Below are positions 1,306 to 56,900 of a DNA stretch of 64,000 bases, one piece after another. How positions within the stretch are numbered: position 1 is the stretch's first letter; every line of letters begins with the position of its first letter. Both the position numbers and the translations under genes were made by a program. The DNA is from Branchiostoma floridae. Taxonomy: Eukaryota; Chordata; Leptocardii; Amphioxiformes; Branchiostomatidae. The notes under the pieces were generated by a model that had not been told where the DNA came from, searched no databases, and worked only from the letters and a program-made list of their open reading frames with translations. The stretch spans positions 24,143,710-24,207,709 of the forward strand of contig NC_049983.1 in NCBI RefSeq assembly GCF_000003815.2, in the 5' to 3' direction.

Positions 1306-1519
1306 ATGGCGGGAAAAGAGGAAAGCTACACCAGACACCCCTTGCAAGACCAAGGGGTCGACATGACAACCGTGAACGCTGACGAGAAGAGGGATGAAGC
1401 CGAGAACGAGCGACCCACATGGGGACACAAGGTGGATTTCATCCTGTCGTGTGTAGGCTTTGCCGTGGGTCTGGGAAACGTGTGGAGGTTTCCCTATCTT
1501 TGCTACAGGAACGGCGGAG
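1306..1519 (+). CDS. SLC6 exon 1 (N-terminus, TM1)
   Basis: ATG follows GCGAAA, giving a purine at -3. It encodes aa 1-71: an acidic cytosolic N-tail, then the TM1 motif with the GLGN sodium-site asparagine. Ends in phase 1 at GGCGGAG|gtaagg. The next exon completes the NGGGAF motif. Confidence 0.95.
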
Positions 1520-4500
1520 GTAAGGATTCAACGTTAAGTACACATAACGTACGTGTAACCCGATATGCTAACGTTAACTCGCGCACGTAACACTCTCAAA
1601 GGGGTGGGACGCACAAAGTATGTCAGAGCAAAGTCCAAGTTTAAAAACAGCTCCATTAAATGGCAATTACTTTTGTATGGATCCAATGCTAGCAATGCAT
1701 TATTTCCGTAAAGGCTTTAGTCTGAGAATTGCTACATCGTGAGGCAGTTGTTGCAGCTGCTACATTGGTTCTGCTACAAGCGCGGCTGTGGCAAAATATC
1801 ATGAATGTAGCAGCTATGTCAGCAACATGGTTCCTCTGACATAATACAAAGTGCTGCCCGCATAGCGGCGTTGTGTATGATATTGGGTCCAGTCACTAGC
1901 AAACACTTTTCAAAACCCCAGTCACGTTTATTACGATAAATGATCCTACCTCTTCGCCATGTGCGATTTTAAGATACACGCATTCCCTATAAAACCCCAA
2001 GGACGCCAACCGCATGCTTGAATCCTTGGTGGTACACTGCGATTTGGCTTTCTAACGAAACAGCCTTCAACTTAAAGCGTGTCTTGCTTCTACGTCTTTC
2101 AATTGACCCTGACCCTGGCCCGGCCTTCGGAAAAGTTCAACGCAGCCGTTTTCTTTCATGCTTGTTCGCGTCTGGCACTTAATCTGTTTACTTTGCACTG
2201 AAAATGAGAGAGTATAGTGTTACAAACGTTTACATAATGGACATTGTGCGACTTTCTCTTAGTAACATTATGCTGTTGGGGCGAAATATATTATGTTTAT
2301 AATACACGTAGCATATGGGCACAAAACTCGGAAGGGTGAATGGAGATAAATGTTGCTGCATATAATCGTAGAAAACTTCTTGTGTTAGATTTCAGGTAAG
2401 TCAAACATGAAAAGACCATGGATTGTAACTTACACCGCTCTAAATATTATTCACTACCAGGGGTATAATGTGAGCCTTTTGGGGATGTAACAGCACGATT
2501 TGTGCCCATATACTACATTTGTACATGTTACGGATTGGTTAATGTCCAAGGTGTATGGGGTGACAAAAGCTTTGGTCCGTTCTTACCAAGTTAGCCAGTG
2601 ACAAAAGACCTGAGGGTTACGCTTTCAGCATGAAATGTAAAGTTCTCTCCCTACCAAATATAACGCCCTATTACTGTCTATGGTAGCCACCGTTTGTGTA
2701 CTTAACCTTCTAGAAGGCAGTCCATATACCTGGCTCAGGTGTGAGGTGAGACTCCTTTGTTGACAAGTAAACAAGGTGAACAATAGGATGTTGACACACA
2801 AGCAGGTGGGAGTACTACTAGGACTGTTCCATTGTGGACAATTGGGAGGGGTGAACATAAGTGATGTCAACTAAATGTATCCAATATGTAGGGCTTACAA
2901 ATTTGATAACTTAGTAACCTTTGATGACCTTTTATTCATTGCTACATCATGCATATATGGACCACCTTTGTAAGGACCACCTATAATATAGTATCAAAGT
3001 TCAAAAGCTGTCACAGTGCTGATGTAACCATTAACCTTGGAATGACCTTGGGGTCAGACCTTGAAGTGGCCTGCAGGTCTTGTTGAGTGGTGACCATTGA
3101 CTATAAAAAGATGTATAAAACCTAATAATATGATATATTATACTGTAATTGATATAATATGATATATTATACTGTAATTGATATAATATGATATATTATA
3201 CTGTAATTGATATAATATGATATAAAATCTATACTGTAACATTATCTGATATAGAACTGGGGTGGGTTGATATACAATCTGTAGAGCAGTTAATGCTATA
3301 TTCACTATCTGGGACACCTTTTAAACCAAGGAGCATTGACAGTATGTTCTATGTATAATTGGTCTTTATGGATAGTTTGTGTTGAGACTTGCCCTTAAGT
3401 CATCTGTCATCTCTAGTTTGTTGTAACTGTGTTTATTACTAGTATACTGCAATATAGTAAAGGCACTCGTTGGTCTTCAGGACCATGAGTAGTACTAACG
3501 CAAGTTCACCTTTATCCGGGTGGTAACCTATATCCGTTGTTTGGAAAAATAGTGTATTTAGGCACATCAATTCGACGGGTGGTAGTTTTAAACTGCAATG
3601 TACTGAAAATATTGAAATTTTAAACCAACGTCTGTCAACGCGTATGTGATATCCCCAAATACCCTGTTTTTAAAAGCAATGGATATAGGTTACCCAACGG
3701 ATAAAGGTGAACTAGCGTTACATATAAAACAACACTTTTGGCAGAATTTGCAAGGATGATGTCTGTGATTTTGAAGTATAACTTGTCATCAAATTTGCTT
3801 TGTGGTTATCCTAATGAAGAAATCTATATAAAATGAATTGATTTTGGCCCTCTAGCAACTCTCCTTTGTATTGCAGCAAAACTTTCTTGGCTGGAAATCA
3901 CCATTATTGTTTGTTCTAAAAAGGGAATGCTTATCAATGCCACCAGTCTGTTTCTGATCCTCTATTCTACAGGGAGTATATTATTAGTGTCCCAGTACTG
4001 AGACACTCAATACTTGGGGCATGTCATCAATGTGTTGGAAATGGTCCCATCTGACCCAGTGGTACTCAGCTGTCTGTTGGGCTGGGTGGGAATTCTGGAT
4101 ATCTACATAGACATGTAGGCTGTACCAAATTATTTCATTGTTCTGAGACATGTTATTAGAAGAATGGGAACAGGTTAGGTCTGGGAAAACTAGCATTTGT
4201 TCACTACCTAATTAAACTGTGTGACTTCATTTCAGCTGTCTGTATGACTGTCCAGGAGTTTTATACATCCACATATAGGCAGTGCTGAGTTATTTTTTGT
4301 TCTCCGAGTTTTAGATGTTACACTGTATAAGCAAGATGGGGACTGGCTGGGTCCACATAAAATGGCATCTTTCTACATTCACTGCCAAAAATTGTGCGTA
4401 CCATGGTTTCAGCTGTCTGCAGGTTTGTGCAGAAATTTTGACTATGCCCTGGTATTTATAGCTTGGAAAGTGAGTTTACAATATTATGCTAGCATTATCG

Positions 4501-7500
4501 GTATCAAGTTGGATATAGATAACACAAGGCAGGACTCGGATATAGTTAGCTGGTAATTTTGGTGTAATACTCTGGTATTTTTGCTATCATGCCCACACAT
4601 GCCATGTGTTGTGATGTCCTCATGGTGACAAGTGCAAGAGTCAAATTTCGTCTCTGGGGACATTTATGTACCCTCTGGCCTCTCAAATTACAGTTGAGAA
4701 GTATTACCTTGTTTATTGCTAACTTAAATTAATATTAGTTCACTTGATATGGTAAATAACTGGCCAATATATAAAAGGAGAGAACAGAAAATGGCGGAAA
4801 GACTACATGAAACACAATAAATATCCTTACAGTATACTGTAAATGCAGAAATGTTCGCGGTGGATTAATGTTCGCGGTTTTCATGGTGACCACTTTACCG
4901 CGAACTTAAAACCACCGCGAACATTTTTCTATTACGTTATTAGACTGCAGTCGATGGTGTTACCGCGAACTTAAATCCACTGCGAAAAGCCCCTTTTTCC
5001 TGCTACCCCGAAATTAAATCCCTGCAAACTTAAAATGCATTTACAGTAATTTGTCCAAGAAATATTGTGAAAATCAAAATCTGCCCATGAAGACCACTCA
5101 AGTCTATACGAACAGGTGGTCACAATACACCTGTCGTGTCAATGGGGAGAGCCACATTAGTCAGGTGGGACTTATGTAGATGTAGAGGTGGTAATAATAT
5201 ACAGGTTTGACTGTACATTGTACTTTTAAAAGATCCCATTACTTAACTTTCTTAATATCATTGAAAACCACATCTAAACACAATAAAATGCATCATGGGT
5301 AAACATTTTTATATTGTACAATGCAGATCTGTTAAAAATCTGAACACTTTCAACATGATCTTCAAATGCAGTGCCCATGTTTGTTTGCATCCATTAAAAG
5401 TCTGACTGACAAGGTCATTGTTTGGAGTTGTTGACAACTTTCTCTGGAGCTGAGTAGAATAAGAATGTCAGGGCCGTTACCTGATATCTTGTTTTGGAGA
5501 GTCGGAAAGAACAACTTGGCATTGTTTAAAAAGGTAACATCTTTAGTGAGTTTGCAAAGTCTGCGTGACACTAGACAGAAAATGAACCTTTCGAACTCTT
5601 GACATTTACTGTAGAAATGCAGATTGTTTTTCAACTTTCAGCATGCTGAGGCGTGGGCTTGTGTGACATTTGATATTGTAGAGGTCCAGCAGGGCTCGAA
5701 ATACCACCTGTATATGCAGGTTAGTGCAGGTACAATTGGAGCTGTGCAGGTATTTCTGGTGTCTACCTGCACCTAACCTGCACTATGTGCATGTGCTGGG
5801 TTTTAGACATAAATGTCCTATGATGTTACATGTATGTGAATCGTTATTAGCTGCATTGACTGTTAACACCTAGTATTAGGTATGAAAAAAAAAAAAGCAA
5901 TGGTTCCTCAACAATTCCAGTATGATCCATACTTCCTAAATTCAGAGTGGAGCAGGTAATATTTGTCTGGTGCATGCAGGTAATTTTCAATGTTACCTGC
6001 ACCAGTGCAGGTAATACTATGCAGAAAAAAGTATTTCGAGCCTTGGTAGCATGACAGGATTTGAATCCAGGACCTCTACAATATTACCTTTTGAACTCTT
6101 GACATTTACTGTAGAAATGCAGATTGTTTTTAACTTTCAGCATGCTGGGGCGTGGGCTTGTGTGACATTTGATATATCTTTATTGAGACACGACAAAAGT
6201 ACAGCGACTACATGTATAACAGCTACTTACAGTACAACTTAACACACATATATGGATGAATAGGTATGAATGAATCAACATATAGGGTCTAGCTTGTCAT
6301 TACACCATTGATTCTATGGTATAAACATTTGTGGATATATTTGCCTACTTGTACACAGTGTGGATTATCGCCTCCCAGAATATAGTTGAGTTTATCTATC
6401 GAACAGAGAGTAGCAAATTCATTAGAGCAAGCAGAAAGTAATGTGAACAGCTCTGTGCGTTTGTAATATTGTAGAGGTCAAGCTACCAATTTTGTACCCA
6501 TGGGAATAGCATTCAACACAACATATGTCACTTCACTCAGTTGAACATGAGTACCAAGCTTGGGGTTAAGGAACATCCCTCAGATAGAGCATTGATGGAG
6601 ATCTCAAATTTTGATAAGAGCCACATCTAGAGCATGTTAAAGAACCCACCACACTTATCGAAAAGAGGAGGGGTCCTTCCCAGTTTGAGTGGATCAATTA
6701 AATCTGTCCGGATATGTAGCTTGTATGGTTTACTTACAAACCCAGAGTGTTACACCATAAGTTATCACAAGGCAGTTTACCAGGCATGCGGTACAAGCAA
6801 ACAAAAATATTGGCACTGACAGAGTAAGGTCCTGAGTTCAAATTCTGATATGCAATTATATCAACTAATGTTATCTCACTTCACTCAGGTGAAAATGAGT
6901 ACCAAAGGGTCACTAATAGGAGCATCCCTCCAATTGGACGTTTATTGAGGTCCCAAATTTTGAAGAGAGACACATCTCAAGCACGTTAAGAACCCACCAC
7001 ACTAGTCTTGTATTATAGAGTTAAAGGGTCCTTCCTGGTTCGAGAGTATCAATTAAATCTGTCGGGATATGCAACTTGACAATGTATGCAGGGATAAACA
7101 AGTCCACTAGCCCTATTGTCCAGGGCAAGTGAAAGTGCTGTTCGGGCAAGTGCATGTCCTACCCCACTTGTCCGATTGGGCAAGTAAGATTTTCCATTGA
7201 TTTTAGTGCAATTTTGATATACTTGTTACTTTTTACAGTCATGACATCAAGCAATTGTCTACACTCAGTCAGAGAATTCCAATGCTGGAAGTGAAAATGC
7301 ATATACTAGTAACAGTGACATTTGAATTTTGGGCAAGTGGATTTTAGAAAACTTGTTCAACCCTGGTATGGTTTACTACAAACCCAGAGTGTTACACCAT
7401 AAGTTATCATAAGGCATTTTACCAGGTATGCAGTGCAAGCAAACAAAGATATTGGCACTGACTATATTAGAGTGAGTCAGCAGGGAGTCTCAGGGTTAAG

Positions 7501-10500
7501 ATCACACTGGGTCATCGACCTCTGGTGGTAATGAACCCCACCTGGCTGGCACACTTCCAAATATGGGGAGCCTTCTCAGAAGAAAACAGATCACTGTGAA
7601 TGTCAAGTTCAGCGCCCTTCTTAGTTCATGACAGCTGGTGATGAAGGCCTTGCCAGTTTAATTTGTAGGTTCTGCAGTTTTGAAAAAGATAATGCTAAGC
7701 AGGTGCTGAAAGATGATAATAGATTAGAGTCTGACAGAAAATTCTGGGTTATCAAGTCAGGAACAGGTCCGGGCTTCAAACTGCAATATTTTCAAAACAA
7801 AAATACGGCTATTTTCAAAACATTGCAATGTCCGTCAACGTCAACCCAAAGTACTGTTTTTAAAAACAATGGATTATTATACATGTACAAGTAGGTTAAC
7901 CCGTGGATAAATGTGAACTAGCATTGAATTTTAATCTTAATCTCCTACAGTAGCATGAAAAGCTGGCAAAGGAGTTTAGGAGTGCCAGCTGGCCTACTGT
8001 CCGTAGCCAGTGCACACTGCGTCTTCTAGGCCGGCTAAACTTCTTCGCCAGCTTTTGATACTATCTTATGGTACCAGGAAACAAAATACTACAAAAAACT
8101 GTACAATGGACTTCCCCCGATCTCTAGATCTATTCAGAAAAGAAGACTGGCCCTTGCTGGCCATGTAGCATGCCATGAGGAGATGGCCTCCAAAGTTGTC
8201 TTCTGGCAACCCGAGGAGAAAAGAAGAAGGGGACGACCGAACCTGACACTTAAGAATGTACTGGAGAGTGAGGTTGGAGTGAAGGACCGCAACCTGCTAG
8301 CCGCCATGCTAGACAGAGATGCATGGTCTGATATTATTAGTGGCACCTCTTATGAATATGAGGATGAACTGAACTGAACTGAACTATGGTACCATTGGAT
8401 CTGCTTGGATATTAGCATTATCTTGGGGGGGGGGGGTAGGTGGGCGCTGGTTCGCGATTTTGAACGGTTCTCTTATGCTGGATTTCATTTATTTATGTAC
8501 TGTTATGTTCTATTCATATGATTATTGCTGTGATGAGTCTTGTAATTAATGACTTTGAGTTGTTTTTATGTTGGGCTAATCGCATTTAAGTTACTATCCT
8601 AATTTTTGATTAGTCACGTTTTATGTTATACGATTATTGTTATGTTTATGTTTATGTTCATTATGTTGATTTGGGCTCCCTTGGAAATCAGTTTTATCAA
8701 AACTGTAGGGACTACCCTGAAAGATTAATAAATAAATAAAAAATGCTGGTAAAGGGAGTTTACCAAGGAAGGGAGTTTGTCGTGGAAACCAGCCCGGCTG
8801 GAAGACTGCAGCAGACGCTTCTGGTACAATGTAGGGTCATGACCTTTCCTGTCTGCATCAGCTAAACCACCTGTCGACCCTCCATTTCTCACCTGGACAG
8901 GTGCAAAGAACAGGTAGCACAGCGAACGTGCCTTAAGCAGGGGAGGGGCCATTTCCTTTGTTTACAACCTAGATAACGCGAAATGTGTGCTTTGCGGGTG
9001 GTGTGTACTGTCACGGAAGAAATACTCTGCAAACAACATGCCGGGTTTACACTGTCAGACTTTACAGTGTAAACAAAGCAGTCTGTTCACTTACGAGTCA
9101 TTTCACTTTTGTCACTGATTTCATTTGCACTGCATTTTACACTGTACTATAAGTACAGTTGCCAAATCAGCTGATTGTTGCCTTTGTTCACAAACTTTAA
9201 ACAACCTTTGGTTACAAAATATTTTTTGTGATTGCATCAATCTACATAAACCAAGACTGCACCATGCAACTTTCACCACATCGTACCTAGTAACACATGT
9301 TTGTACTTGGTACAACTTGTTGCTTTTGCCATACTTTGTTACTAAGACAATGGTTCGAGTAAATTTCAGAGAATAAAGTTCATGTATGTTGCAACGCAAC
9401 TTTAATGCCAACCGCTAGCAGCACAATTTTAGTCAGCCTTAGTTCTAGGAAATTTACAGATATTTGAACACATCTATCCTTAAAGCTTGGTTGATAACTT
9501 TGAAGGCATGACTATTTCTTGTTCTTGTCTGAACTGGCATTAGATACTCAGTAGTCGGGACAGCTACCAGTAAGACCTGGCGAACCTCTGTCTCATATCA
9601 GCCATACGGTGATTAATATCATTCACCCAGAGGGAGACCTGGTGCATCCCCAGGGCCATCTTGTATTCAGCTATTCGAAAGGGTATGTCACCCCGTAAGG
9701 GGCGGTATAACCCCGTCCTGTGTAATCACGTCGACCGATGAAATGAGACCAGTTTATTACTACATCTATTAGACTAAGTCAAAGTACGTTGCACCTACTT
9801 GCTGATTGTGCAGTAAAGTTGATGTGCCTGTCTGTTGATGTGTCTGTCTCATCCCAGGAGCGTTCCTGATCCCGTACTTCATCTGCCTGGTGGCAGGGGG
9901 CGTTCCTGTCTTCTTCCTGGAGATCTTCCTGGGCCAGTTCATGAGCCAGGGCGGCATCGGCTGCTGGAAGATATGCCCCATATTCCAAGGTGAGGCCACT
10001 TCAATTTACAGTGTAATTTGTTGGCTCAACATTTTTACATAAATTTTAGGGCATTAGGAGCCACCAAATCAGCGGTCTGGGACCAAAGCTTGCATTTGAC
10101 TCTGTTCACCGCCTCAAACTGTGCACCAAGGTACCGACTTTGCCTTCGGACTGCATTTCATACTATACATTGTATGCAGCATTATTTTTTTTACATCAGC
10201 TGACAACCAAGAAATCAATTTGTTGTGGCCTAAGGTTTATAAGTTAAAGAAAATCATATTTTCTATGACTTCATAGCATACGAATCAGAAAAAAATTCTT
10301 TTCTTTTTGACATTAGTTCATTTATGGTGGCCTTGCGTTTTCAATCTGAGATTTCGAAATTCCAAGGTAAAGTAACTACCCTGTACAAACCTGTGCCTTT
10401 CCGTTGATAAAATGAACTCCTTTTCCCATTTTAACGTTGGCTGTTTTTCAGGCATCGGGTTTGCGACCACCGTGATCTGCTTCCTCCTAAACATCTACTA

Positions 10501-29195: not shown

Positions 29196-29522
29196 CTTCA
29201 AACTGTAGCTATCAATAGCTGAATGTACACCTCTTGTTGGTGCATTTGAACTTGCCAGAGGTATTTTCGAGTGAACTATTTTTTTAATGGTGGGGTGCAT
29301 AGGTTGGAGGGCTTTAAGCCAAATTGCACTATTTTGTTGTGTATCCAAATATTGACAATCATGACTTTGCAATATAAATTTATGTTACTATGGTCTCGGG
29401 TGCCAACCATATACATGTAATGCTACTATCCACAGCAGCTTTCCTATATTTGATATGAACAACTCAAGAATAAACTTTATCCTCAGAGTCTTCTGACTAT
29501 CGTGTTCATTTCTTTGCCGTTG

Positions 29523-29715
29523 CGGATCTGATCGTACGCTCGGGACAGGAAACACCCCCCCCCCCACACACTCTCTCTCTCTCTAACATGTCTAAAGGGT
29601 GTCCTTTCCACAGCAACACTTACCGATGGACACACCAACATGCGAGCCAGACAGATTGACATTGCTCTGTGAGATGGCGGCCATTCGGATTTGATCGTAA
29701 GCTCGGGACAGGAAA
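29523..29715 (-). pseudogene. Two TKT exon 10 donor-side fragments beyond the TKT 3' end
   Basis: 29624-29715 matches the last ~90 nt of exon 10 including the CGATG|GTAAG-type donor (minus strand). 29523-29553 is a shorter piece. Differences in the longer copy are about six, all synonymous. They lie 1.2 kb past the stop codon, near C-tracts and CA/CT repeats like the in-gene copies. Confidence 0.9.
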
Positions 29716-29935
29716 CACCCCCCCACACACACACACAAACATGTCTAAAGGCTGTCCTTTCCACTATCTGACTATCGTGTTCATTTCTTTGCCGTTGATG
29801 TGATGTGCTCCCCAGCGACCCGGAGTCTGGTAGAGACTAGCTCATTGGGAAGAAAAGGTTTTAGATATTCTGGGATAGCTTTGATGGCTAACAAAACAAA
29901 AGACAGACAAGGTGTAGAGTTGCATACTGTATTCA

Positions 29936-29941
29936 TTTATT
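29936..29941 (-). terminator. Candidate poly(A) signal for TKT
   Basis: AATAAA on the minus strand about 985 bases past the TKT stop. I saw no nearer one by eye. Transcript data would be needed to confirm it. Confidence 0.25.
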
Positions 29942-30925
29942 TGAGGATATCATTTTTTGCTAGCACTGGTGCATGTACCTACAAAATGTCCAACTCTCTT
30001 CTATCTCTAGAATCCTTCCTACCACATGTCCAGATAGTTTACTCTGATCCTAAAGCTCTGTGAGCCATGACTGACAAATTCTCTAACGTATAATCAGTTG
30101 TTTAATTTCAAATAACACTTTGTTGACGATCATTATAAAGTCACTGACTTTGCCAATCTTTCATAATCATTTCAATCATTTCATGACTTCTGATGGTAAT
30201 AGGAAGATCCGACATACGAGGTTTTTTTTGCGCCACCCAAATGCAATAAAGGGCAGAAAAGAAAGGATTGCATGGAAGGTACAAATTGCGAACTTTGTGG
30301 CAAACCTTGTCGTTTTTGTGATTCTCAGTATTTGCATACCAATTTTTTCAGTCTCTCTGCCAGTACAGATCTTTTTCACACTTTCCTACACCCCATTCCT
30401 GTCTGACCCTAAGCTGTTTAAGTTTTAAACCTCCACCTGAAACATTATATGCTACACAGAATTAAGAAAAGGGTTATTGTGACTCGACCTATATACTTTG
30501 TTGTCGATAAGCCATGTTCAATGATTTAACTGTGCATGCAATGCAAGATACATTGTGGTCAATATGTCAAAAAGATGAAGGCCCCTGAAACATAAACAAA
30601 ACACATCTGGACAATGTATCAAGCATAGTTGTGACAAGAACTGTTTACAAGGTAGGGGCCTTAACCTTTGACACGTTACCCACAATGCATCTCGGTATGC
30701 ATGCACAGTCTAAACCTTGAATAGGCTTAATTTGGAAACCTGACTTTTAACTAGCATCTTTTGTACAGAATTCAATGGTTAGTGAGAAATTGGGAGAAAT
30801 ACATTCCAAATGTCTCCAAGATGATTACTATAAGACAGTGAATTTCCTTGTGTTGGGAGAAAGTTTACCCCTGGCCTACCTTAACGTCTTAGCAGTGAGT
30901 TCACGTCTTAAAGGAGGATGTGTCC

Positions 30926-31092
30926 TCACAGCATCTCCTGGACTGCCTTCTTGATGCAGCCAGCGGAGATGCCGAACTTCTCAAGCAGCACCGCGGAAGG
31001 TCCGCTGCGGGGAACCTCCCTCACGGCCAGCTTCTTCACCGTGATGTTGGGGAACTCGGACAGGCCGGCACTCACAGCTTCACCAATACCTC
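30926..31092 (-). CDS. TKT exon 13 (C-terminus, stop)
   Basis: Acceptor tataatag. Encodes [40 protein letters not shown] and ends KKAVQEML with TGA. Confidence 0.96.
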
Positions 31093-34000
31093 CTATTATA
31101 CAAAACAAGTAGTTTATTTAGTATATAGCAGATAATATATTATTGACTCTTCTTAAACTGTTACGTAAGAATCTACTACAGTTGAGCTCCTGATTGCCAA
31201 TAGACAAGGTGAACAACAACCAAAGTCATCATTCTGCACATTTGGGGAACTCAGACAGGCAGGTGCTTGACTAAGAATTCTTGATGCAAGAAACAAGTAG
31301 GTTTTAAGTCTATAGAAGACAACATATTATTGACTCTTCTTAAACTGTTACATGACAATCTACTACAGCCTCACAGTTGAGCTCCTGGTTGCCACTAGAC
31401 ACTACAAGGTGAACAACAACACCAAAGTCATTATTCTGCACATTTGGGGAACTCGGACATGTATGAAACAAGTTTTTTTTTGGTATAATTAAGAGATATT
31501 AGTGACCCGGGTTCTAGCCAGCATCCGTCCTTCTGTCTACGTCCAGCAGCTTCAGGGTAAATGGGTCAACAAACAAACAAATAAATAAACAACGTACTCA
31601 CCGTGAGGACCCTCCAGCGGCTTCAGGGTGGACGGACCAAAAATGCAACAAACAAATAAACAAACAAATAAACAAACAAACAAACCTTCAGGGTAGTGAT
31701 CCTCTACTGTGAGGACCCTCCCGCCGGTTGCCTCTGCGCTTGCCCGCAGGGTGTCTACATCCAGTGGCTTGATGGTGAACGGGTCCACGATGCAACAAAC
31801 AAATAAACAAACCTTCAGGGTAGTGATCCTCCACCGTGAGGACCCTCCCGCCGGTCGCCTCAGCACTCGCTCGCAGGGTGTCCACATCCAGCGGCTTGAT
31901 GGTGAACGGGTCGATGATGCGCACGTTGATGCCATCCTTCGCGAGTTCATCCGCTGCTTTCGTCGCTTCCACCAGGGTCACGGCGGCGCCCACGATGGTC
32001 ACCTGATCACTGTCGCTCTTACGGACAACCTGAAGTATAGTAAAAAATTACAGGGTTTATTTTAGATTAAAAAATCGTGCACATTGATTGGCATCTTTCT
32101 CTAGCTCGCCGGCTGGTTTTGTCGCTTCCACCAGGGTCACGGCGGCACCCACGATGGTCACCTGATCACTGTCGCTCTTACGGACAACCTGAGGATGTAG
32201 TAAAAAAATGAAAGGATTCATTTTGAAATTACAAAAATTGATGCGCACATTGATCAAGTCCTTTGCCGGCTCATTTGCTAGTTTTGTCACTTCCACTATG
32301 GTCACCTGACCACTGTCATTCTTACGGACAACCTGCGGACATCAATACAGGGTTTTCAACTTTCAAGTTAAATGGTTTAACTTTTAAAATCCTTCCCAGG
32401 TCCTTAACTACTTTTGGCCCTTGATAATGGCCTCCAACTAGTTGGGCAGCCCTGGCTGAATCTTCTAAAAACCAAATAAATCAAATTAAATTAAATCACT
32501 ACTTTCAGTGCATATGGGGCAGGCCAAACAGTAGGGGGCAAGTTCACATTCCATATATTCTTTCTTATTAGTGCTAAATATGCTATGCAGAGAAAACCAT
32601 GGATGTGCCAATTTCAAGAATGAACATCCAAACACTCCACCCCCACATGTAGGTCTTTGCACCAGTTGTAGGGTTTGTGGGAGTAGAGATACAACAAATT
32701 TAGGGAAGTCTTACAGGGAGCATTTCAGTTGTTAGTCTTTTACAGTTCAGTTCAATTCATCCTCATTGTACGAGATGCCATGGATGATACCATCTCTTCC
32801 CCCTTACAATAAAAAAAATAGACAAACAAACCACAGACCTTCGCCTTGCCGGCCTCGAACACCTCGTCGCTGCCGTAGATGACGGGCGTGGCGGGACGGC
32901 TGGTGCGGATGTAACAGATCCCCTTGGTGTTGGCGGCCAGTTCACAGGCGCGCTCGCACGACACGGCGTCGCTGGGATAGAACACCGTCGCCCCGGGGAT
33001 GGCACGGAACATGGCGAGGTCCTCCAACGCCATCTGGGAGGGGCCGTCCTCCCCTGGGGTGGGGAATAGTTCAGATTAGACTCAGGATGATCCCTAAAAT
33101 TGGTCTATCATCCTCTCGCACAATCCTGTATCAGACACATTGGCTTGTTCTGTCATAGCCTTGCTGAAATGCATCTGAAATAGTAAATTTTACGTAAAGC
33201 AAAGCAAGTTTGCTTACATCAGCAAAAAGAAATTTTAAACCACTGTCTCCTGTATCTCTGAATAACACAATAACTAAAAAGTTTCCACCTTTCTTTCTCA
33301 ATCAACTTAACCTGACCTCAAATGTTACTAAAAGTTTCTCAACGTTAAAACCGTCCTCCCCGGGGTAGGGAACAGTGAGGTTAGATATGTCAATGAAGGT
33401 TAGACATCCAGGTAATAAGATACGCCCAAAGCAACTGGTTATGATTTGGGAAACGGTCAGACGTTTCAGACAAACTCTCTCCAACAAGATTTCTCCAGCG
33501 TCACTGACGAAAGACACCGGATGGTTGTCTGGAAAGTCTGACCATTTCCAAAATCATATCCAGTTGCTTGAGTAACTGCTATTTGGTGTAGTAAAATCAA
33601 ACTTTGAATTTCTCAGATATTTTGAAGACTGTACTTGTGAGATGATCTATATCTTACAAAATTTTGTCTTGGTCAATGGCTTGTTTGGTCAAACTCATAG
33701 CCTTGATCAATGCATCTGATACAGCAAAGTTTGCATACAGTTGTTTACCGTTGCTTACAGTTACATGAGCAAAAAGAAAACCACTGTCTAACCCTGAGAA
33801 ACACAAAATAGTGCTGAAAAAAAAAGACGTTTCCACACTGTTCTCCAATTACACACATTAGGGTGTCTCAACTTTAGAAATACACCACCCTACAAACACG
33901 TTCGAAAGCTGTCCTTTCCACAGCAACACTTACCAATGGACGCGCCAACATGCAACAGATGTGGTAAAGACTGCAATTCTCTTATAGAGCTGTACAATAA

Positions 34001-37000
34001 GACTTTGTCAACATTCACCAATGAAGGCCATGAATCTCACTTACCGATGGACACACCGACATGTGACCCCGACAGGTTGACGTTGCTCTGCGAGATGGCA
34101 GCCATGCGGATCTGGTCGTATGCTCGGGACAGAATGCACCCCCCCACACACACACACACACAAACACATCTAAAGGCTGTCCTTTCCACAGCAACACTTA
34201 CCGATGGACACACCGACATGTGACCCCGACAGGTTGACATTGCTCTGTGAGATGGCAGCCATACGGATCTGATCGTACGCTCGGGACAGGAAACACCCCT
34301 CCTCCCCACACACACACAAACATGTCTAAATGCTGTCCTTTCCACAGCAACACTTACCGATGGACACACCGACATGGGAGCCCGACAGGTTGACGTTGCT
34401 CTGTGAGATGGCGGCCATTCGTACGCTCGGGACAGGAAGCACGCAAATTTCTAGCTATACATACAACCTCCCCCTACAAATGCGTCAGAAGGCTGTCCTT
34501 TTCACAGCAACACTTACCGATGGACACACCAACATGCGAGCCAGACAGGTTGACGTTGCTCTGCGAGATGGCGGCCATGCGGATTTGATCGTACGCTCGA
34601 GACAGGAAGCACGCGAAGGTGCTGCAGAACACCACAGCACGGTCCCGCGTGGCAGCGCCGATTCCAACGCCCACCTGTTGGTACCAAAAACAAGTGCCAT
34701 GAAAAAACTATTCATATGGAACAGTCTGCCACAGGACATTCAGTCAGCTAGCAAGTACAAGTTTAGACAGGAGCTTCCTATGCATGCAAATAAGTACTAA
34801 TTAAATTTTGGTTTGCAAATACCAGTTGTTTAAATTTCATGTAATTTGTACGTCTTGTATCTTTGTATGTTTTAATGTCCCGAAGTCCAGGAAGACTATC
34901 TACCTACAAATTTTGCATAATAGCTAATGAGCTAAATAAAGTATACACATATCCAAGTAACTATCATGAACAGGTCCATATCTACATGAAACTAAGATGT
35001 AAGCTAACACAGGAAGCACGCAAATGTGCTGCAGAACACGACGGCGCGGTCCCTTGTGGCAGCGCCGATGCCGACACCCACCTGTTGGAACCAAAAACTC
35101 ATGCCGTGAAAATACTTACATAAACAGGGCCATATCTACATGGAACGGCTTCCCTAATGTTATGAAATCTGCTGCAGAACACGACAGCGTGGTCCCGCGT
35201 GGCGGCACCCATCCCAATGCCCACCTGTTGGTACCAAAAACTAATGCAGTAAAACAGGGTTCTAGCCCTTAGCTGCTGGGGATGGACAAAAATTTTTCCA
35301 TTCCGTCCCGTGAGGGACAAAAATCAGCATGAAAAGATTCTAATTGAACCAAGCTGAGTCTAACAGCAAAATTTTCCCCCAGAATAAAGGAAATAGCATT
35401 TCAGAGGGTCTAGGTTTCAAAATTTTCCCGGATAGCATATCCCCGGCCCCCCTAGGATCGTCACACCTTTGACAGGACTTCCATTCAAAATCCAGGGTAC
35501 GGAACAAAAGGGAAGATTTCAGGCTGACTAGAACACTGCCGTGAAAAATACTATCTATACAGTATGTACTAACTGTTTCCCTAATGTCATACAATCTATT
35601 ACTCTGTCCAAGTTTCGGCAGGGACTTTTAATGTAAATAATCAGTAATTTATAATTTTGCTTGTAGTATGCTAATATAAGCCAAGCAATATAATTTTTAT
35701 GTAAGTTTGTATGCCTATGTTTTGAGTACAGGAAGATTATCTACTTCCAATTTATGTGTGTAAGCTAATGGACTCAATTAAGTATCCAACGGACCCACCA
35801 TGTTCTGCTCGGCAATGAAACACTCCACGAACTGCTCTGGTTTCGCCTTCTTCAGCTTCTCAGAGAAGGTGGAGTTCTTCACGTCGGCGTCGAAGGCCAC
35901 GACGCGATCGCTGGCCTGGCCGAGTTTTGCTAGGCCGGTGCCGTAAGCAGCACGTGTGGCAACCTGCACAGCAACACAGATCTTACTTAATTCATATTTC
36001 CCAGATACAAATTGGATATATAAAGCTTTAAAACACAGCTGAGGCTCTTTTAAATGTTGTTGTAAACTTTCAAACTGTATTATCAAAAACTTTGTTGACA
36101 GGTGAAGAGACTGAAGTTATACTTCTATAAGAGAATTTACTGATCTGATATAGCTATTCACAGAATTTACACATGGATCAGGACTGTTATGCAAGGAAAA
36201 GTAAAACCTTTACCAACCATATGCACATAGCTGTAAATTATGATGTGGGATTGTTGCCACAGTAAGATTTGAAAACAAATGACCTAACTTGTAACGACTC
36301 TTTTGAAACAGATCTAAACATACTGTGACGGTGTTGATGTTCAGGACATAAAATAAACTACCTTAACATTCTCCTGCTAACCCTGCAACAACTGCATATT
36401 CAGAACCAAAGAAGAACATTGACACAACATTGACGTGTGGCACTTCCTCCAGAGTGGAAGTATGATGAGAATTAACTGTACTGACTCATCCAAACCAAAT
36501 CCATAACAAACATATGCTGTGTTTTTCTGCCCTGATCTATCGTAAATTTCTCCCTAGTGCCTAGCCCTGTAACCCAAACTGTGAGAAAAAGGCTTCATCT
36601 GCAGGAAGCAGTTTAAATAAAAGTACAGAAAACAAAGCACAGCCCTACCTTATCCCCCAGACTGTAGCTGGGAGGCTGGGTCATCTTGATGTTGGAGAGG
36701 TCGACCTTCGGCGCGTCGTCTGTCATGGGCTGCGGACCCACGTTGTTCTCCCCCACAATGAGACCCTCAATTGCCTTGATGGCGCCGTCCGTCTTGTCAC
36801 CCATGGGCTTCCCGTGGAAGTTCTCTTCATCCTCCACACCTGCAGATAGACATGTTCACATCTCAATCATAACAAGAATTTTATCAATATTCAAAACGTT
36901 GTTGTTCTCTTCCACGATGAGATCCTCGATCGCCTTGATGGCGCCGTCCGTACGGTCGCCCATGGGCTTCCCGTGGAAGTTCTCTTCATCCTCCACACCT

Positions 37001-40000: not shown

Positions 40001-43000
40001 TGTTATAATATTGTATAACTGGGAATTTCTGTTGTGTTGTAATGACACACACTTGTGAGAAATAGTACAGGATGAAACATTCCTACTGGGGTGGGGTGTC
40101 TTTCCAGTCTGAAGGGCTTAGGTGTGACAAGCTGTCCATACAATACCATGTGACTAATGATACACAATGTCATGTACTTCATTTTGAACCACCACACCTG
40201 TAAGATACAGTACTACACTTAAAAACATCCTTACCGGAGTGGGGTGTCCCTCCAAGTCACTGTCGATCTTCCTCAGGTTGAGCAGGTCCTCCCTGGGGAA
40301 TAGACCGGCCTGGGCCCAGGCAGCGTACAGCACTGGGGCAGCATGGCCCTGGGGAGGGGGAGAAGAAACATGTTAGAACAGGCAGCGTACAGCACTGGAG
40401 CAGCATGGCCCTGGGGAGGGGAAGAACATTACACTGAAACTACGGCACATAAAGCAGTGGCTACTATACAAATGGATTGCTTAAAACAACACTTTTCACT
40501 GAGTGGTACATGGCCCCTATTGGGACTGAGAGTATGTGGTGAAGGTTTGGAAAACCCTGTTCAAATTCTTATTAGAGTATTATGACCACCTCACATCTAT
40601 ACAGTACTGCAGTGGAATTTCAGGGTTTGATATGTTAATCTTGACATGCTAGGATTTTTCTGTGGCACATACAAAATGGTACAAACAGTATGTTTTGTAC
40701 AGAAGTTTGACCAAACTTTGGGCTACCTAGTTTCTTTTATTTGTTAGTTTGCTTACCTTGGACAGCACGAACCGATCGCTGGAGGGGTGGCGAGGCTCGG
40801 ACAGGGTGTACCTCATGGTGTTGTAGAACAGGACAGAGATGATGTCTGCTGCACTGCAGCATGATGTAGGGTGGCTGCAGGAAAAAGTTATCACTCAATC
40901 AAATAGAGGTATCTACAAACTCAATGTAGTTCGGTATTATATTGACTGCAATGAAATGACTTTTGAAAGTCTCTGAGACCATCATGCCCTCAAGTTGTAG
41001 CTCAAAGTGGAGTCGAATTATTTTGCTGCAATTTCTTGTCCGTTTGAACATTCAAAAGCAGCTCAACCAGCCTGCAGTGAGGGTGTCATGGAAAGTCAGC
41101 AAACTTCTTTTGCCAAATTTTACTTTGTCTTTCCAAAGAAGTCCCTTGATTTATTATCCCCAACATCATATGATGCTGGGATCCCAGCTTAAAGACTGGT
41201 GCTATAAATGGTTCAACTACCAAACTTAATGTGTCTTAAAGTACAACAAATAGCCAAGCAAAAGCCTGACACAATCATAGCAGCCTACTACAACATGTAT
41301 CCTACATGACATGAAAAGATACTGATCAAATTTACAAGTAGGGCAGTAATTAGAATGCAGATCACAGCTTATCTATGGTCAGTCGGTCACCTTGAGAGCG
41401 CATGTTCTGGCATTGTTTCCTGTACATAAAAGCACATGAATAGTCGTCTATTGAAAGAAATGCCTCCCTAAGTCTAACAATGCATATATTTATTTGAATG
41501 TCATTCTTAACATACATTTGTTTCTAAAGTTGCAAAGAAAGCATTTTTGCACAATATTGCCGCATGCATACGAATTATTTAATGTGTATATCTTAAGACC
41601 CAGTTAGCAAATAGTTACATGTACATCTTATGATCAATTGTTGACGTTCTGACATGTTTTTCATAGGTAGGGTCAATCCTGGGTTCAACCAAGAAGCCAC
41701 CCCCTCAGGCTGGCAAGTGGTGAGCCGTTGTGGTTTAGTCCTTCAGAATGCAAGTGCCCGGGGCAAGAAGGTGCTAACAATAACACTAATGGTGACACTG
41801 CGGTTTTAGTTTCCGCAACACAGCAAAGAAACAGTGTAGTGATTCATTTTTTTTTCCTCTCCTGGTATAATTCAACTACTAGTTAAGTACTAGTACATGT
41901 ATGCCCCAAAGTAAAACTATTGGAAACCAAACGTACTGTCTGTCAAGATGACAAACATAACATTGCTTTGTCGCAAGTAACATGCACTGTACAGTTGTCC
42001 CTTCTTGTGACAAATAAATGTATTTTATATAATAGTATAAGAAAACTAGTGCTACTGTCAAATATGTTATCATTACAAATGAATTGCTCTTACAATCCGC
42101 ACTGCACTTCCTCTTCGTTATTACGTGATTTTCTTCAGTAGTTTGGCAAGCATGTTATGTTAGACATACACCTACATGGCTAGAAAAACTCTGCTCTGCC
42201 ACTGCCGGTAACTTAAATCTGCTTTGAGGTTATCAGTGTGGTGGGTTCTTTTAAGTTTTACGTACGTGCTTGAAGCTAGGTACTTATTTTCACCTGATTC
42301 AAGTGGGGTAATGCCTTTACCTACACAACTTTGGGGGATGGATTCGAACCCAGAACCTTTTCTCAAAGTCAACAACCAAGCCACAAAATTATGCACAAGA
42401 CCACCTTGCCACCTTTCTTATCAACTTAACATCAGTGACGGTGAATCAAACGGTGAAGGAAGTGTAAAAACCCAACGAAATGCCTAACAAGTTCACCGAC
42501 ACAGAAACAGCTGAGTCAGTGGAAAAGCCTGACAATGTCATAACCTGACCTAACATGTGGGTCGGTAACGCCATATTTGATTTCCCGCCTAAACCAAAAT
42601 CACACCCCTGACTTTACCCCCTCCAAAATCGCTCTAAAAACGAAAAACTGCCCTCCTTACCCTGATTTTGAGGCGCTGGTAGCCTTGATGCTGTCTATGC
42701 GGAGCCGGTTTGCGGCGTCCTTCAGAGTTTGGAGAGTTTTGGCGTCGGGTTTGCGGTAGTCAGCCATGGCAGACGTGATGTCCTGAAACACATGCACGGA
42801 AAGGGACGGACTGAGCGGTGAACTTTAACCCTTACCGGCGGGATCGTCCACTATTTACAGGGGTCATGAAATTTATTATAAACGATAAGAATGTATCAGA
42901 CAAACAAAACATTTCTTAAATATTACCAATTAATTTGGAATTACAAAACATATCTGTATCTAGATTGTCTCTATAGACTTTGCAAAATATTGCGTTTATT

Positions 43001-45101: not shown

Positions 45102-45656
45102 CTTAGGCCACAGCAAGTAAATTTTATGGATGACATCCTCTGCAGACTGCAAAAATAGTGCGATAGGGCGAAAAAAAACAACATGGGTAAAAAAAAACAA
45201 GATGGCTAAATTTTAAAAGATAGGCACATAAAGTTGTGATGACTGTTGTAAAAATAATTAAAAGGACAAAACATGGTATCAGAGCCAACACGGCATTCAT
45301 TCCTGTATTTAAGACATGTACTGGTATGGTAAAAGTGACACTAGTGTGGTAGACTGGCATCACCATCAAAGTTGGTAACCACACTCATGGCTTCCATATT
45401 GGTGTTACTTTTACAACTATCCAATAAGTTTCATTTCTACAACTACAGCCCTGGGTACCTCGCAAGTGTCACTTCTACAAGTACAATTATTAGGCTACAA
45501 CACAATATATTTGCTCATTTTGGTACTTTATTAAAAAATTTATCATGTTGACGATTCCTGCAGAAGAAAAAAAATCTTGTTTTTTTTTTCTGAAATCAGG
45601 CGAAAATTAATGCGCGCGCGGATGTCATCCATAAAATTTACTTGCTGTGGCCTTAG
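45102..45656. mobile_element. Inverted-repeat element abutting an N gap
   Basis: CTTAGGCCACAGCAAGTAAA..GGATGACATCC at 45102-45138 is matched in reverse at 45620-45656, right up to the gap. Arms may extend further as degenerate A/T-rich sequence. Confidence 0.8.
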
Positions 45657-45756
45657 NNNNNNNNNNNNNNNNNNNNNNNNNNNNNNNNNNNNNNNNNNNN
45701 NNNNNNNNNNNNNNNNNNNNNNNNNNNNNNNNNNNNNNNNNNNNNNNNNNNNNNNN
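45657..45756. other. Assembly gap, 100 N
   Basis: Begins exactly at the outer end of an inverted repeat, so assembly probably failed on repeat structure. Confidence 1.
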
Positions 45757-47584
45757 AAAGCTATGGAGGTGATTTTTATGATTGTTTCGTTGCGTTCGTG
45801 GCTTGACTGAAAGTAAAAGTAGGCCAAGATTCAGCTCATGCCGTCATACATGTCTGATCGTGTAAGGGGTCGGGGTGCAGGGATTTTGTTAGATTTGACT
45901 GGATTTGTGAAAAGTGTCAAACTAAGGGCACATCACAGGGCAGCATACAGAGGGAAGTAGGTCAATTGGCACTGGAAGATTATTATGATGGGGAAGACGG
46001 CAATGTGATAGATGTGTGATTCCGTAGGTATCGGCTGTATACCTTTTCGCCTAGTTTCCTTCAAAATAAAAAGCTGTACATGTATGTGTAAGTCTCCTAG
46101 CAGCCGTGTCAGCTGGATGGGAAAAAAGAGAAGAATTTGATCAAATATGGACCAATTTGGTGCAATGGGATTTCAGTCAGTCAGACTCAGTCTTTTGCAG
46201 TACTCCAGATATCCGCCGGTCGGCCAGTTCACTCCTAGGCTACTGCTACTAATAGTACTAGGATTTTATTCCTAATTTGGTCAAAGTCCCCTATTACTAT
46301 TCGCCCAGGCGGGAGTCTGGTACATGTGTATATGTGTGTAAGAGCTACGACTTGATTTTTCGCAGTTTTGTCTTCTCCCAAACAGAGGCCGGGTGGGAAG
46401 ATTATGACCATCTTCGATCTGCCCGTTTTCTAAAGCTTGTAAGGCTCATTGGATTATTTTCCAATCATATGTTGATGGAGGCAAAATTGTTACTTGTTAC
46501 AGGACCACGGGCAGTGAGGAAAACGTGACAAGATTCCCCTCCAATTATTTGCTTGAAGCAAGGAGGTTAAAGAAAGAGAAGATTGTCATTGGAAGGGGGT
46601 GGTAGTGTCCGAAAATGGTAATCTCAAAGCAGATGTAGCATTTTGTCTTGATGGTATGAAAGGTCCCGTCAGATACCGGGATAGTCGGGTATGTGGAAAA
46701 ATACGCGCGACTCCCAAAGAAAAGAAAAAAAGTGCAAAGCAACTTAAAAACGTAATTTTTTTCCGAAATTGTACTTTAAAGGTAAAGAATGCCCTGATCC
46801 GTTGACTGCTGATAAACTGCTGTTATGCTCTCACAGGGAGGAGGAATAAATGAATGAATGAATGAATATCCCGTCAGCTTTCGGGAACAAATAGTTTGAT
46901 ATGAAAGACACCAAACTTCACAAGACACTAAGAGAATAGCCGTGGGCATTATTTGTGTGTACAAATTTTGTATACATTTCTATTTTTCCTTTCCACAAAC
47001 GCCCCGGCCCGGTTTGAAAATGTGACGTTAGCATAATACAGGTAAATCATGCATCCGGAAACATAAACAAACAGACGCTTCGAAACAATACCTCCGATCA
47101 CGGAGGTAACAGTACAATACATCACAATGATCATACCCCACACGATGTTGTAACTTGAAACGTCAGCTTAACAAAAATCGAATTAGGCGCCTCCAACGTA
47201 TTGTCAATTCATGATGCAGCTACAAGATAGTCTGTCGGCAGGCTGTTTGAACGAAATATCTTGTTTCTGAGGATGAACAATAAAGGGACCACCCTAAAGA
47301 CTCATATATAAATAAGTAATGAAATTGTTCAATGAATAGCGTCAAATTTGTCAGGTTTGTAAGTCTTCTGAAATGAAAGGTAACGGTCGTTTCAAAAACA
47401 ATTCTTTCTCACTTGTTAACGTTTCATACAACTGTTTGGCTAACGATATCGATAAGAAGTAGAAAAGTTCATTACTCCCTGATGATAATTGTTAGCCTGG
47501 TAAAAAGCAAAGGTAAAGGGATTCCCATATCCTTTTTGAGACCAGAGGGGCAGTGGGTTGTTATCCTAGTACTGACATAATCTC

Positions 47585-47796
47585 GAACCAGATCCACGGT
47601 GCGTAATGTATAGTATCAAACATCCCGTACCAGATCCACGGTGCGTAATGTATAGTATCAAACATCCCGTACCAGATCCACGGTGCGTAATGTATAGTAT
47701 CAAACATCCCGTACCAGATCCACGGTGCGTAATGTATAGTATCAAACATCCCGTACCAGATCCACGGTGCGTAATGTATAGTATCAAACTTCCCGT
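47585..47796. repeat. 42-bp minisatellite, 5 copies
   Basis: Unit CCAGATCCACGGTGCGTAAT, GTATAGTATCAAACATCCCGTA, nearly identical in all five copies. Because 42 is a multiple of three, repetitive ORFs appear on both strands; they are artefacts. Confidence 0.97.
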
Positions 47797-47804
47797 AGGT
47801 GCCC

Positions 47805-48187: not shown

Positions 48188-48498
48188 TAGCCTCCATAGC
48201 AGGCTCTCTGGGGCCTTTTTTGGGCTTATTCGGTAATACACTTTTGCTGGCCCTTTCTGTTTGTGTCTCGGCCGCCGGTTGCTGGCCTTTCCCGGTTGCG
48301 CTCNNNNNNNNNNNNNNNNNNNNNNNNNNNNNNNNNNNNNNNNNNNNNNNNNNNNNNNNNNNNNNNNNNNNNNNNNNNNNNNNNNNNNNNNNNNNNNNNN
48401 NNNGGCCAGCAATCAGCGACCGAGTACAAATAGAAATGGCCAGCAAAAGTGTATTATGAGCCCCAAAAAAGGCCCCAGAGAGCCTGCTATGGAGGCTA
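48188..48498. mobile_element. hAT-like foldback MITE with 8-bp TSD and central gap
   Basis: TSD ACAAAAAG at 48180-48187 and 48499-48506. Arms of about 100 bp begin TAGCCTCCATAGCAGGCTCT on both ends (reverse on the right). The 100-N gap 48304-48403 sits in the centre. Confidence 0.92.
48304..48403. other. Assembly gap, 100 N
   Basis: Located at the loop of the foldback element 48188-48498. Confidence 1.
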
Positions 48499-53963: not shown

Positions 53964-56900
53964 GTAAGTGTATAACCGACCGGCTAGGCTTGCCGGTTGT
54001 AATGTCCGCATAGATCTGTGAATTTTCGGCGTATTCTAAGCGTTAAAACGGTAGATTTGGGCCCCAAATGAGACAAATTGTCCACATTTCTCAAACCAAA
54101 TAGGCGCAGTTCCGGTCCTATCGTCTATTTAAACCCCTTAGTTAAATACCGGCTTCTTCGTGCATGTAACCTGTTCCCAATGTCTTAAAATCTTTAATTC
54201 CTGTGTGCTTGTGTCTTACATATGTAGAAATCGTCAGAAAAAGTGTAGAAATGGGTGAAAACGTGCCGGTTTTTGTACGGTTTCTGTCGGCCCTTGAAAA
54301 ATCAATCTTGTTCAATGACACTTCCGCATACCCTGGGGCTGCGGGATTTGCATATGTTTATATTTCATCAGGTTGTACCATTGCAAAAAATAGGGGGTGG
54401 CAGGGAAAATCCTTTTTAACGCAAACTTAATTATAGGTACTTTGGGCAGAAGACAGAAAGTAAAAAATCAATTGTTATTGATAGGTAACAATTATTGATG
54501 GATGAATATTTTTTTGAAGGAATTGTAGCTTGAAATTCTGCATATTTACTACCGAGGACTGTACCATTTCAATGTTGACAGGGCCCTGGGCATTTTTCAA
54601 ATAAGGGGAGTGGGGTGAAATAAATGAGGACGGTACATAAATGTGTCGTTTATTGAAACCAAAAGGGGCTGTTGGGTGGCAACTGCTTTACCTTTTACCT
54701 ACAAACCTGTTTGCAAGGCAAAATAATCCAAGACACCACCAAAGCATGCCCACATTAAAGCGAAAACAGATCCATACATGCTTGGAGGTAACCTTTGCAG
54801 AGGAGGTGGTCACTACATTTGGTTTGACTGTCTTTATCATGGATGTCCCTGTAGCTGAATTGGTAGCAACTTCAGTTGAGCACCTGTTTCCAATTATAAT
54901 ATTCAGGGAACGACATCTGAAGCTTCACCATCTTTAGGAAGGGATGTATAATACTCTCCAAGCAGAGGTTAGGCTTCGGCTGTTTTTTCAACGTTTTTTT
55001 AGTTGCTTTTATCAGGCTTTCTATTTCAACCTACATTGGACACAGCAAAAAAAAGAAAGACAAAATAGAAAGCCCAATAAAAACGACGAAAAAAAAAAAC
55101 GTTGAAAAAAACAGCCTCTGCTTGGAGCGTATGTATAATAGGTACCCCGAGGACGTCGCAACAGCCTCATTACTCAAAATGGCTACCTACTGGATGCAAT
55201 AATACAACAAGGTGAATAAACTGTGACAGCTGTTTTAATGATGCCTCTCCAGGGAATCTGAAGATGCAGAGTCTCGTAAGGGGTGTGAAATCCATGGCGA
55301 AGCGGTGTCATTATACTATCAAGACTGTGAGGCCGCGGTGTGCCCCACATTTTCCAACTGGAAAAACTGTTACGCATTTATTTTGTTTTTGTGACTCCTC
55401 TCCAGGGAATCTGAAGATGCGGAATCCCGGAAAGGATGCGACGTCCACGGCGAAGCAGTGTCGTTATACTGTCGAGACTGCGAGGCCACTGTGTGCCCCA
55501 CATTTTCCAACTGGAAAAACTGCTATACATTTATTTTGTTTGTTTGAATTCTTTGCAGGGAATCTGAAGATGCAGAGGCCCGTAAGGGTGTGACGTCCAC
55601 GGGGAAGCTGTTTCGTTGTACTGTCGAGACTGTGAGGCCACCATGTGCGCCACCTATTTTCCAGTAAATCAGTAACATCTGAAACAAAAAAAAACTGTAA
55701 TAGTTTTGTTTGACTCCTTTGCAGGGAATCTGAAGATGCTGAGTCTCGGAAAGGATGCGACGTTCACGGCGAAGCGGTGTCGTTATACTGTCAAGACTGT
55801 GAGGCCGCGGTGTGCCCCACGTGTCTGGTGGAGGAACACAACGGACACACCATGGCCAAACTGTCGGAGGTAGCGGAACAGAAACGTGCCAAGATGAAGG
55901 CCTCCTTAAGCAGCATACAGGAGGAATGTCAGGAGTGGAAAGCCTCAGGTAAGAACTTTCACCTTCACTGTTACAAACAAAAAAACTTTCACCAAAAGGT
56001 TACTAGTACTTTGTATGTCTTTGGTTTGGCAATGGTAAACTGGCTGTATAACTGAAGGAGCTGTGAATGGATCTTCATGATATTTGGTAGGTAGGTAGGT
56101 GAGAGGGAGACAAAGGTTTAAATGGGCCTACTAGCTGTGTCCTAAGATACTGCAGCAGAACTTTGAAGAAGTTTCACACCTTGTAAAAACTTTCATCAGT
56201 TGAATTACTAATACCTTGCAAAGAGCCTCTGTACTGTAAGAGATGCGTTGTGTCGTCACAAGCTTGGGATGAATTTATGCAGATAGAAATTTGAGAGTTA
56301 TGTACTATTGTATGGATGATATGTGTGGCAACGTCAATATTTGTACATGCACATGTGCAGAGTTGTGAGAGATGTATGTTTTGGAGTGTGATGCAGCCTT
56401 AAAGGACCCTCAAGTACACTGTGTATGTGAAAGGTGGTAAGACAAAGGCCACAACAAGGTAAATGTTCACAACTAAGCTAAGTCTGACTCATTGCAGGGG
56501 AAAAGTACTGGGGTGAGATTCAGGCAGGCCTGACTGCAGAGAAAGACCACGCAGCAAGGGACATCAATGCAGCAGCCAGGAGGATAATCGAGCAGGTACG
56601 CTGATGATATGGCCATGTTTGTTGTACACCTCATAATCTACATGTATACCTTAGTTCTCCACACATTTTGAAACAGTCCAACCCTTGTAAGACAGGGAAC
56701 ACTGGATGCTAAACCGGTTAGTGAGTGAGTGGACTAAAGGTTTCCATTCAATATTGTACGCACTGGCTTGACTGTCGTCACATTTGATTTAGTGGTAAAG
56801 GGTTTGCTTCTGGATCACAATGCAAGGAGTTGAGAGACTGACAAGGCCAAGCTAGCAATATAGGTTTTAAACTACTTGTAACTGTAATACTGATCACTAC

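Follow-up and report, generated by a model that had tools for sequence, protein, structure and literature searches.

Partial copies of its own exons lie beside the exons of a gene of the amphioxus Branchiostoma floridae that we take, from the likeness of its peptides, to be animal transketolase (TKT). Several of these copies are coding-constrained and not neutral, differing from the true exon almost solely at synonymous sites. The gene is on the minus strand of a 64,000-nucleotide stretch of contig NC_049983.1 (G000:C5:24143710-24207709), hereafter the window. In their anatomy the copies resemble mirages, the minisatellites at exon-intron boundaries of amphioxus genes that have been described for Adh3, the globins BflGb6 and BflGb9, TnC and PGBD5 (PMC3087553, PMC3902484). 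Our preferred reading, which we hold to be slightly better than an even bet (probability about 0.5), is that the clean copies are mirage units kept coding-clean by exchange with functional, unusually divergent alleles of the TKT exons.

Layout of the exon copies

The donor-side (D) copies of exon 10, in ~156-bp units, run from the 3′ part of the exon through the GGTAAGTG donor into the beginning of intron 10. At 34038–34612 they form a tandem array of 3.7 copies of a 156-bp unit, each comprising the 3′ half of the exon, GTAAGT and the intron start. The acceptor-side (A) copies are without the 3′ half of the exon and its donor, and the D copies are without the 5′ half and its acceptor. Along the coding strand, A2 and A1 come first, followed by true exon 10, then D1, D2, D3 and D5, exon 11 and exon 12 (with copies on both sides), and finally exon 13, the stop codon and a displaced piece holding D4 and D6. 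When the 12 exons were examined, nearby matches were found for exons 4, 8, 10, 12 and 13, those of exon 13 being very short. Inside exon 10, the D copies begin at nt 58–63, while A1 ends at nt 73 and A2 at nt 55; inside exon 12, the D copy begins at nt 110, and the alignments of the nearer and the older A copy end at nt 109 and 115. In both exons the ends of acceptor- and donor-side copies lie close together, as if breaks recur there, though two exons are not enough to establish it.

Like those of TKT, the published mirages consist of tandem units of ~100–160 bp that extend across a splice site of a real exon, either the acceptor or the donor, and many units retain splice signals (PMC3087553, PMC3902484). 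The TKT units span the exon-intron boundary in the donor array and in A1 and A2, and they adjoin complete, authentic exons 10 and 12, the displaced D4 and D6 excepted. On this anatomy TKT appears to be a new member of the group. It differs from the published cases in having copies at 5 of 12 exons of one gene, with a piece of an array moved beyond the gene end, and in that several copies are deeply diverged, almost solely at synonymous sites; the published accounts, in the excerpts consulted, hold no codon-level comparison. We found no report of codon-level constraint on mirage copies in the searched literature, which does not cover the founding study (Canestro 2002).

A DNA search of the whole assembly (513,431,437 bases, 431 contigs) with one stretch of the array gave 7 matches, none outside the window. 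When the peptides of exons 10–12 were searched as protein, there were 10 matches among the best-scored candidates, all within it. Since every match falls inside the window, these searches revealed neither another TKT locus nor another TKT haplotype, and within their scope we reject a paralogous TKT gene as the donor of the copies.

Silent differences in the clean copies

Codon differences from true exon 10 were counted with a method of the Nei-Gojobori type (Table 1), giving the proportions of differing synonymous (pS) and replacement (pN) sites. The differences are synonymous throughout D1, D2, D4, D6 and A1, and D3 carries a single replacement, at the junction with a flanking G-run. The copies differ from one another in the same way (synonymous/replacement: D3–D4 14/1, D2–D4 9/0, D1–D2 5/0), with pS reaching 0.59. 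A random change in these codons is synonymous in 25–36% of cases, for kappa between 1 and 4 and CpG up to 50-fold. True exon 10 and D1–D4 are separated by a minimum of 18 synonymous changes and one replacement (P = 1.3e-7 at a synonymous probability of 0.36, the value with CpG transitions set 50-fold). The corresponding values are P = 4e-5 for A1 and P = 1e-4 for the donor-side copy of exon 12, whose 9/0 is counted from GACCCG onward with the junction codons dropped. These values exclude CpG mutability or chance as the source of the synonymous excess in the clean copies, and several copies are coding-constrained.

The original prediction had located the exon 10 copies correctly to within a base or two and had judged that they are not neutral, as the donor array bears out. 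It had put the differences in D1–D4 at about thirty, none of them replacing; there are 33 synonymous differences, and one residue, at the D3 junction, is changed. Its count for A1, about ten and all synonymous, agrees with ours. The silent-only change that it stated for the copies it named is upheld for D1, D2, D4 and A1; A2, inside its range, has 3 replacements and D5 has one. It had also kept in view that CpG mutability alone might produce the synonymous excess, which fails for the donor array at P ~1e-7 even with CpG set 50-fold. A frameshifting 10-nt deletion in D1 had been overlooked, as had replacements in other copies of TKT (exons 8 and 12).

Table 1. Exon copies of TKT and associated features in the window, with synonymous/replacement differences from the true exon
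Feature	Position	Strand	Syn/repl	pS	Remarks
True TKT exon 10	34518..34674	-			157 nt, starts in phase 0, both splice sites
D1, donor-side exon 10 copy	34359..34447	-	5/0	0.24	donor GTAAGT; 10-nt deletion breaks frame; 6/0 over slightly longer alignment
D2, donor-side exon 10 copy	34203..34296	-	11/0	0.47	
D3, donor-side exon 10 copy	34046..34139	-	10/1	0.43	replacement in junction codon (TTC>ATT)
D5, short donor-side exon 10 copy	33908..33953	-	2/1		6 full codons and intron start
D4, donor-side exon 10 copy	29625..29718	-	7/0	0.30	displaced beyond TKT stop codon
D6, partial donor-side exon 10 copy	29521..29555	-	3/0	0.38	35 nt, beside D4
A1, acceptor-side exon 10 copy	35009..35081	-	10/0	0.52	then in-frame stop
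A2, acceptor-side exon 10 copy	35170..35224	-	5/3		7/7 when ragged end included
31-bp direct repeat, left copy	29492..29522	.			perfect; bounds displaced 244-bp array piece
31-bp direct repeat, right copy	29767..29797	.			perfect; bounds displaced 244-bp array piece
True TKT exon 12	31813..32029	-			217 nt
Exon 12 donor-side copy	31687..31793	-	9/0		over 33 codons; 9.5/1.5 with junction codons
Exon 12 acceptor-side copy	32079..32188	-	8/4		1-nt gap
Exon 12 older acceptor-side copy	32239..32332	-	10/11		two alignments
Exon 8 acceptor-side copy	36901..36999	-	5.5/4.5		
Exon 4 acceptor-side copy	40379..40410	-	1/0		over 10 codons

Clean and decayed copies side by side

Over the 12 exons, 18 exon-to-copy alignments (S=269, N=805) hold 88.5 synonymous and 36.5 replacement differences, for a pS of 0.33 and a pN of 0.045; these totals include a row for exon 8 (35790–35825) and the very short exon 13 rows, which may be chance matches. 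Clean and decayed copies stand side by side, the acceptor-side copies of exon 12 having 4 and 11 replacements and the exon 8 copy 3 changed residues. Among copies of at least 18 codons, pS lies at 0.27–0.52 regardless of pN, whether this is 0 or 0.18. If each copy had started out identical to an ordinary allele and had aged since, pS would be expected to climb with pN from ~0.04–0.075.

Probable exchange between exon and copy

Two copies have a mosaic relation to their exon. In the nearer acceptor-side copy of exon 12, the first 68 nt hold a single difference and the following 30 nt hold 10 (P = 1.9e-5). The exon 8 copy matches its exon over 41 nt, after which 58 nt contain 10 differences (P = 0.003), and the adjoining intron differs at 9 of 30 positions. 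Both break points were chosen post hoc, and the two P values flatter the case. Short tracts of conversion between exon and copy, in one direction or the other, explain the mosaics best, and the mosaics support rewriting by exchange with functional exons. Published observations favour exchange too: in the globin mirages, copy number differs between haplotypes and units evolve in concert (PMC3087553), and B. floridae undergoes many non-crossover conversions, most of them shorter than 200 bp (PMC12500494).

Depth of the silent divergence

Synonymous diversity in B. floridae is 0.0397, with an effective population size (Ne) of ~1.7 million and a mutation rate of 5.89e-9 (PMC12862219), and alleles of B. 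belcheri show a synonymous diversity of 0.070–0.075 (PMC4284660). We simulated exchange in populations of 80–100 haplotypes with scaled rates, lethal replacements in the exon, copies of equal length and autocorrelated samples; such simulations bound the argument and fit no parameters. Conversion within one chromosome never brought pN/pS below 0.30 (8 settings). With mostly interchromosomal exchange (16 settings, diversity 0.05 or 0.10), the settings with pN/pS of at most 0.10 had a pS of at most 0.137. One-way refresh from functional exons gave a pN/pS of 0.02–0.10 at 2Ng 20–100.

Several results weigh against exchange with functional alleles as what keeps the copies clean. The clean exon 10 copies differ from the exon by a pS of 0.24–0.52, which is 6–13 times the published 0.04. 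In a joint test for a pS of at least 0.33 with at most one replacement, none of 12 simulated settings at a diversity of 0.04 or 0.075 gave this combination, and in 12 settings at a diversity of 0.15–0.30 it was reached by a fraction of only 0–0.119 of the samples. A search for mosaicism among true exon 10 and D1–D4 by excess parsimony steps found 3 extra steps (P 0.11–0.14), not beyond homoplasy. Finally, in the intron parts the sequence beside the true exon differs from D1, D2 and D4 at 6–7 of 31 positions and these three from one another at 2–3 of 31; that the intron differs less than the synonymous sites among D1, D2 and D4 is not predicted by plain joint turnover.

Since exchange simulated at published diversity does not reach the observed pS, two options are left: alleles of these exons that exceed the average divergence several-fold, or selection that preserves ageing copies. 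By hand calculation, germline conversion at 6e-7 or more per generation, the rate at which copies would become exposed to selection, would erase silent differences within ~1 million generations, and some thirty million generations are needed to build the silent differences observed. Somatic exchange, unlike germline conversion, would leave silent differences unerased.

Other genes

The synonymous excess is not confined to TKT, as codon counts at two globin loci show. Local repeats of at least 35 nt occur at 5 of 9 globin loci, and codons were counted in two of these: L032, which resembles the published BflGb9, has 9 synonymous and 2 replacement differences (pS 0.39), and L036, which resembles the published BflGb6, has copies at 3/0, 3/0 and 7/3. 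The copy nearest to the exon in L036 is identical to it over the last 40 intron bases, yet differs in the exon by 3 synonymous changes and no replacement, a pattern that favours exchange.

For a wider view we scanned 20 evenly spaced 10-kb stretches of the genome (200 kb, of which 7,825 bases are N) for local repeats with mostly synonymous divergence, and found only a domain-exon array (L017) and a low-complexity match (L026). None of 13 ADH exons, from 25 matches, has a copy of at least 35 nt, and inspection by eye of 60 chaperonin matches found no pair of the same segment within 1 kb. Among the best 150 of 376 Ras-like candidates, also taken by eye, there are two such pairs within 1 kb (L054 and L055), both aligning over an exon. 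The survey leaves aside 111 mitochondrial-carrier matches, since that domain is repeated within the gene. From these counts, clean half-exon copies look uncommon outside mirage genes.

The L054 pair (330–664) consists of two whole Rab-like exons 204 bp apart, with splice sites in both and 24 synonymous and 9 replacement differences; judged from the sequence, they are likely mutually exclusive exons. In L055, a same-segment exon pair of a Rab-like gene (173–803, minus strand of the locus) is 86% identical over 101 nt. Both pairs resemble TKT in that copies of one exon lie next to each other and differ mostly silently. The L054 pair is unlike TKT in that both copies have both splice sites and are translatable, whereas each TKT copy keeps one. 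The L017 array (53–9628; peptide GCWKDTGNRA...) extends across 10 kb with mostly silent differences, and its domain exons are presumably WSC-like.

The displaced piece and other repeats in the window

D4 and D6 are located ~1.2 kb beyond the TKT stop codon; the original prediction had all pieces intronic, which D4 contradicts. They lie in a 244-bp stretch flanked by a perfect 31-bp direct repeat (29492 and 29767) and equivalent to ~1.5 array units, out of register. The piece has the look of a patch that was inserted at a staggered break or, alternatively, of a small mobile circle built of repeat units; the identity of its flanks points to a young age.

Elsewhere in the window, a 153-bp tandem repeat lies at 55244–55820, in a coding-looking stretch whose peptide we take to be B-box-like; pairs of the repeat's units in part differ mostly silently. 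A 42-bp tandem repeat (5.2 copies, 98% alike) lies at 47580–47797, and runs of unread bases (X in the translations), either gaps or masked sequence, occur around 45643–45760 and 48230–48400.

Discussion

The reading we prefer can be set out in steps. Mirage units would arise as tandem duplications reaching from within an exon into the intron next to it, and their exonic parts would be untranslated. Functional TKT exons would serve the units as both source and exchange partner, through unequal exchange and short-tract gene conversion, and every clean copy would thus have belonged to a working exon until recently, as mutational time is counted. Copies that leave the exchange, such as A2 and the older exon 12 copy, would decay. 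We infer exchange to be the cleaner of the exon 10 copies and infer its direction in the same way. Under this scheme the functional alleles feeding the copies must differ at these exons by ~0.15–0.4 per synonymous site, a level well beyond the mean of the species; such a divergent allele pool would follow from the scheme. For a B. floridae pedigree, phased assemblies of the parents have been described (PMC12862219, PMC12500494).

A clearly less probable explanation is that the copies are of great age and that selection acting on them directly preserves their code. Through somatic exchange, sequence from the array would enter the exon in a fraction of the body's cells, and a copy with a replacement or frameshift would cost a little fitness; silent differences would accumulate freely, as the germline would homogenise nothing. 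This would account for deep silent divergence with few replacements, which the germline exchange models did not produce, and by hand calculation a cost of ~6e-7 per copy would be enough at an Ne of 1.7 million. Somatic instability of the Adh3 mirage is recounted in PMC3087553. The frameshift of D1, which adjoins the exon, while the distant D4 is clean, does not fit such selection, nor do the replacements in A2 and in the exon 8 and exon 12 copies. The broader claim, that untranslated fragments are under purifying selection via somatic exchange and that mirages are a case of amino-acid meaning maintained without translation in place, we regard as unlikely, a little more so than the explanation on which it builds.

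Slightly further down in probability, the divergent alleles may have entered by hybridisation from a diverged lineage or may come from an old non-recombining haplotype (e.g. an inversion), with the copies having sampled both sides and turnover being otherwise ordinary. The pS values of 0.24–0.59 are far above the mean allelic value, as this would require, and large heterozygous inversions have been published for B. floridae (PMC12500494). However, the five sequences need at least four distinct silent states, two globin loci also show the excess, and there is no sign of such a haplotype at C5 24 Mb, the inversions described in the excerpts of PMC12500494 being on chromosomes 3 and 7.

We give little credence to translation of some copies as alternative parts of exon 10. 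D2, D3 and D4 do keep open frames and donor sites. An acceptor-like TTTAG precedes the first shared codon in D2 (by 33 nt), D3 (34 nt), D4 (30 nt) and D6 (40 nt), which puts it in frame for D2 and D4 and out of frame for D3 and D6. D1 lacks this site but does have a different AG, in frame and 12 nt upstream. Moreover, the frame of D1 is broken, A1 reads CFLC-stop directly after its exonic part, and a half-exon product would probably miss a conserved stretch of the enzyme. Given the D1 frameshift, the A1 stop and no acceptor at a consistent in-frame distance among the D copies, the copies are most likely not translated. As mutually exclusive alternative exons they are rejected, having one splice site each besides the frameshift in D1 and the stop in A1. 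The original prediction had offered regular rewriting from functional alleles or translation; the mosaics of exons 12 and 8 and the failure to find a paralogue favour the former, and the latter is left unsupported by D1 and A1.

Neutral decay, with the synonymous excess owed to CpG mutability or chance, can be dismissed for the clean copies: several silent changes do lie in CpG contexts and TKT does hold decayed copies with replacements, but the P values given above allow for a CpG effect of 50-fold, and the rate of C>T at CpG in B. floridae is only about twice that elsewhere (PMC12862219).

In chicken immunoglobulin V genes and in antigenic variation, pseudogenes serve as templates for conversion. 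TKT is alike in having partial silent copies able to exchange with one expressed copy, and differs in that its clean copies encode the same peptide and carry no protein variety.

The accounts consulted describe mirages as tandem repeats that leave splicing undisturbed. If the exonic parts of mirages do keep to the code while diverging far more than alleles do, they either record unusually divergent functional alleles over short segments of exons or are DNA selected for its amino-acid meaning while untranslated. Either reading would matter for the understanding of sequence exchange between repeats and exons where polymorphism is very high, and for the proposal, already published, that new introns are seeded by mirages.

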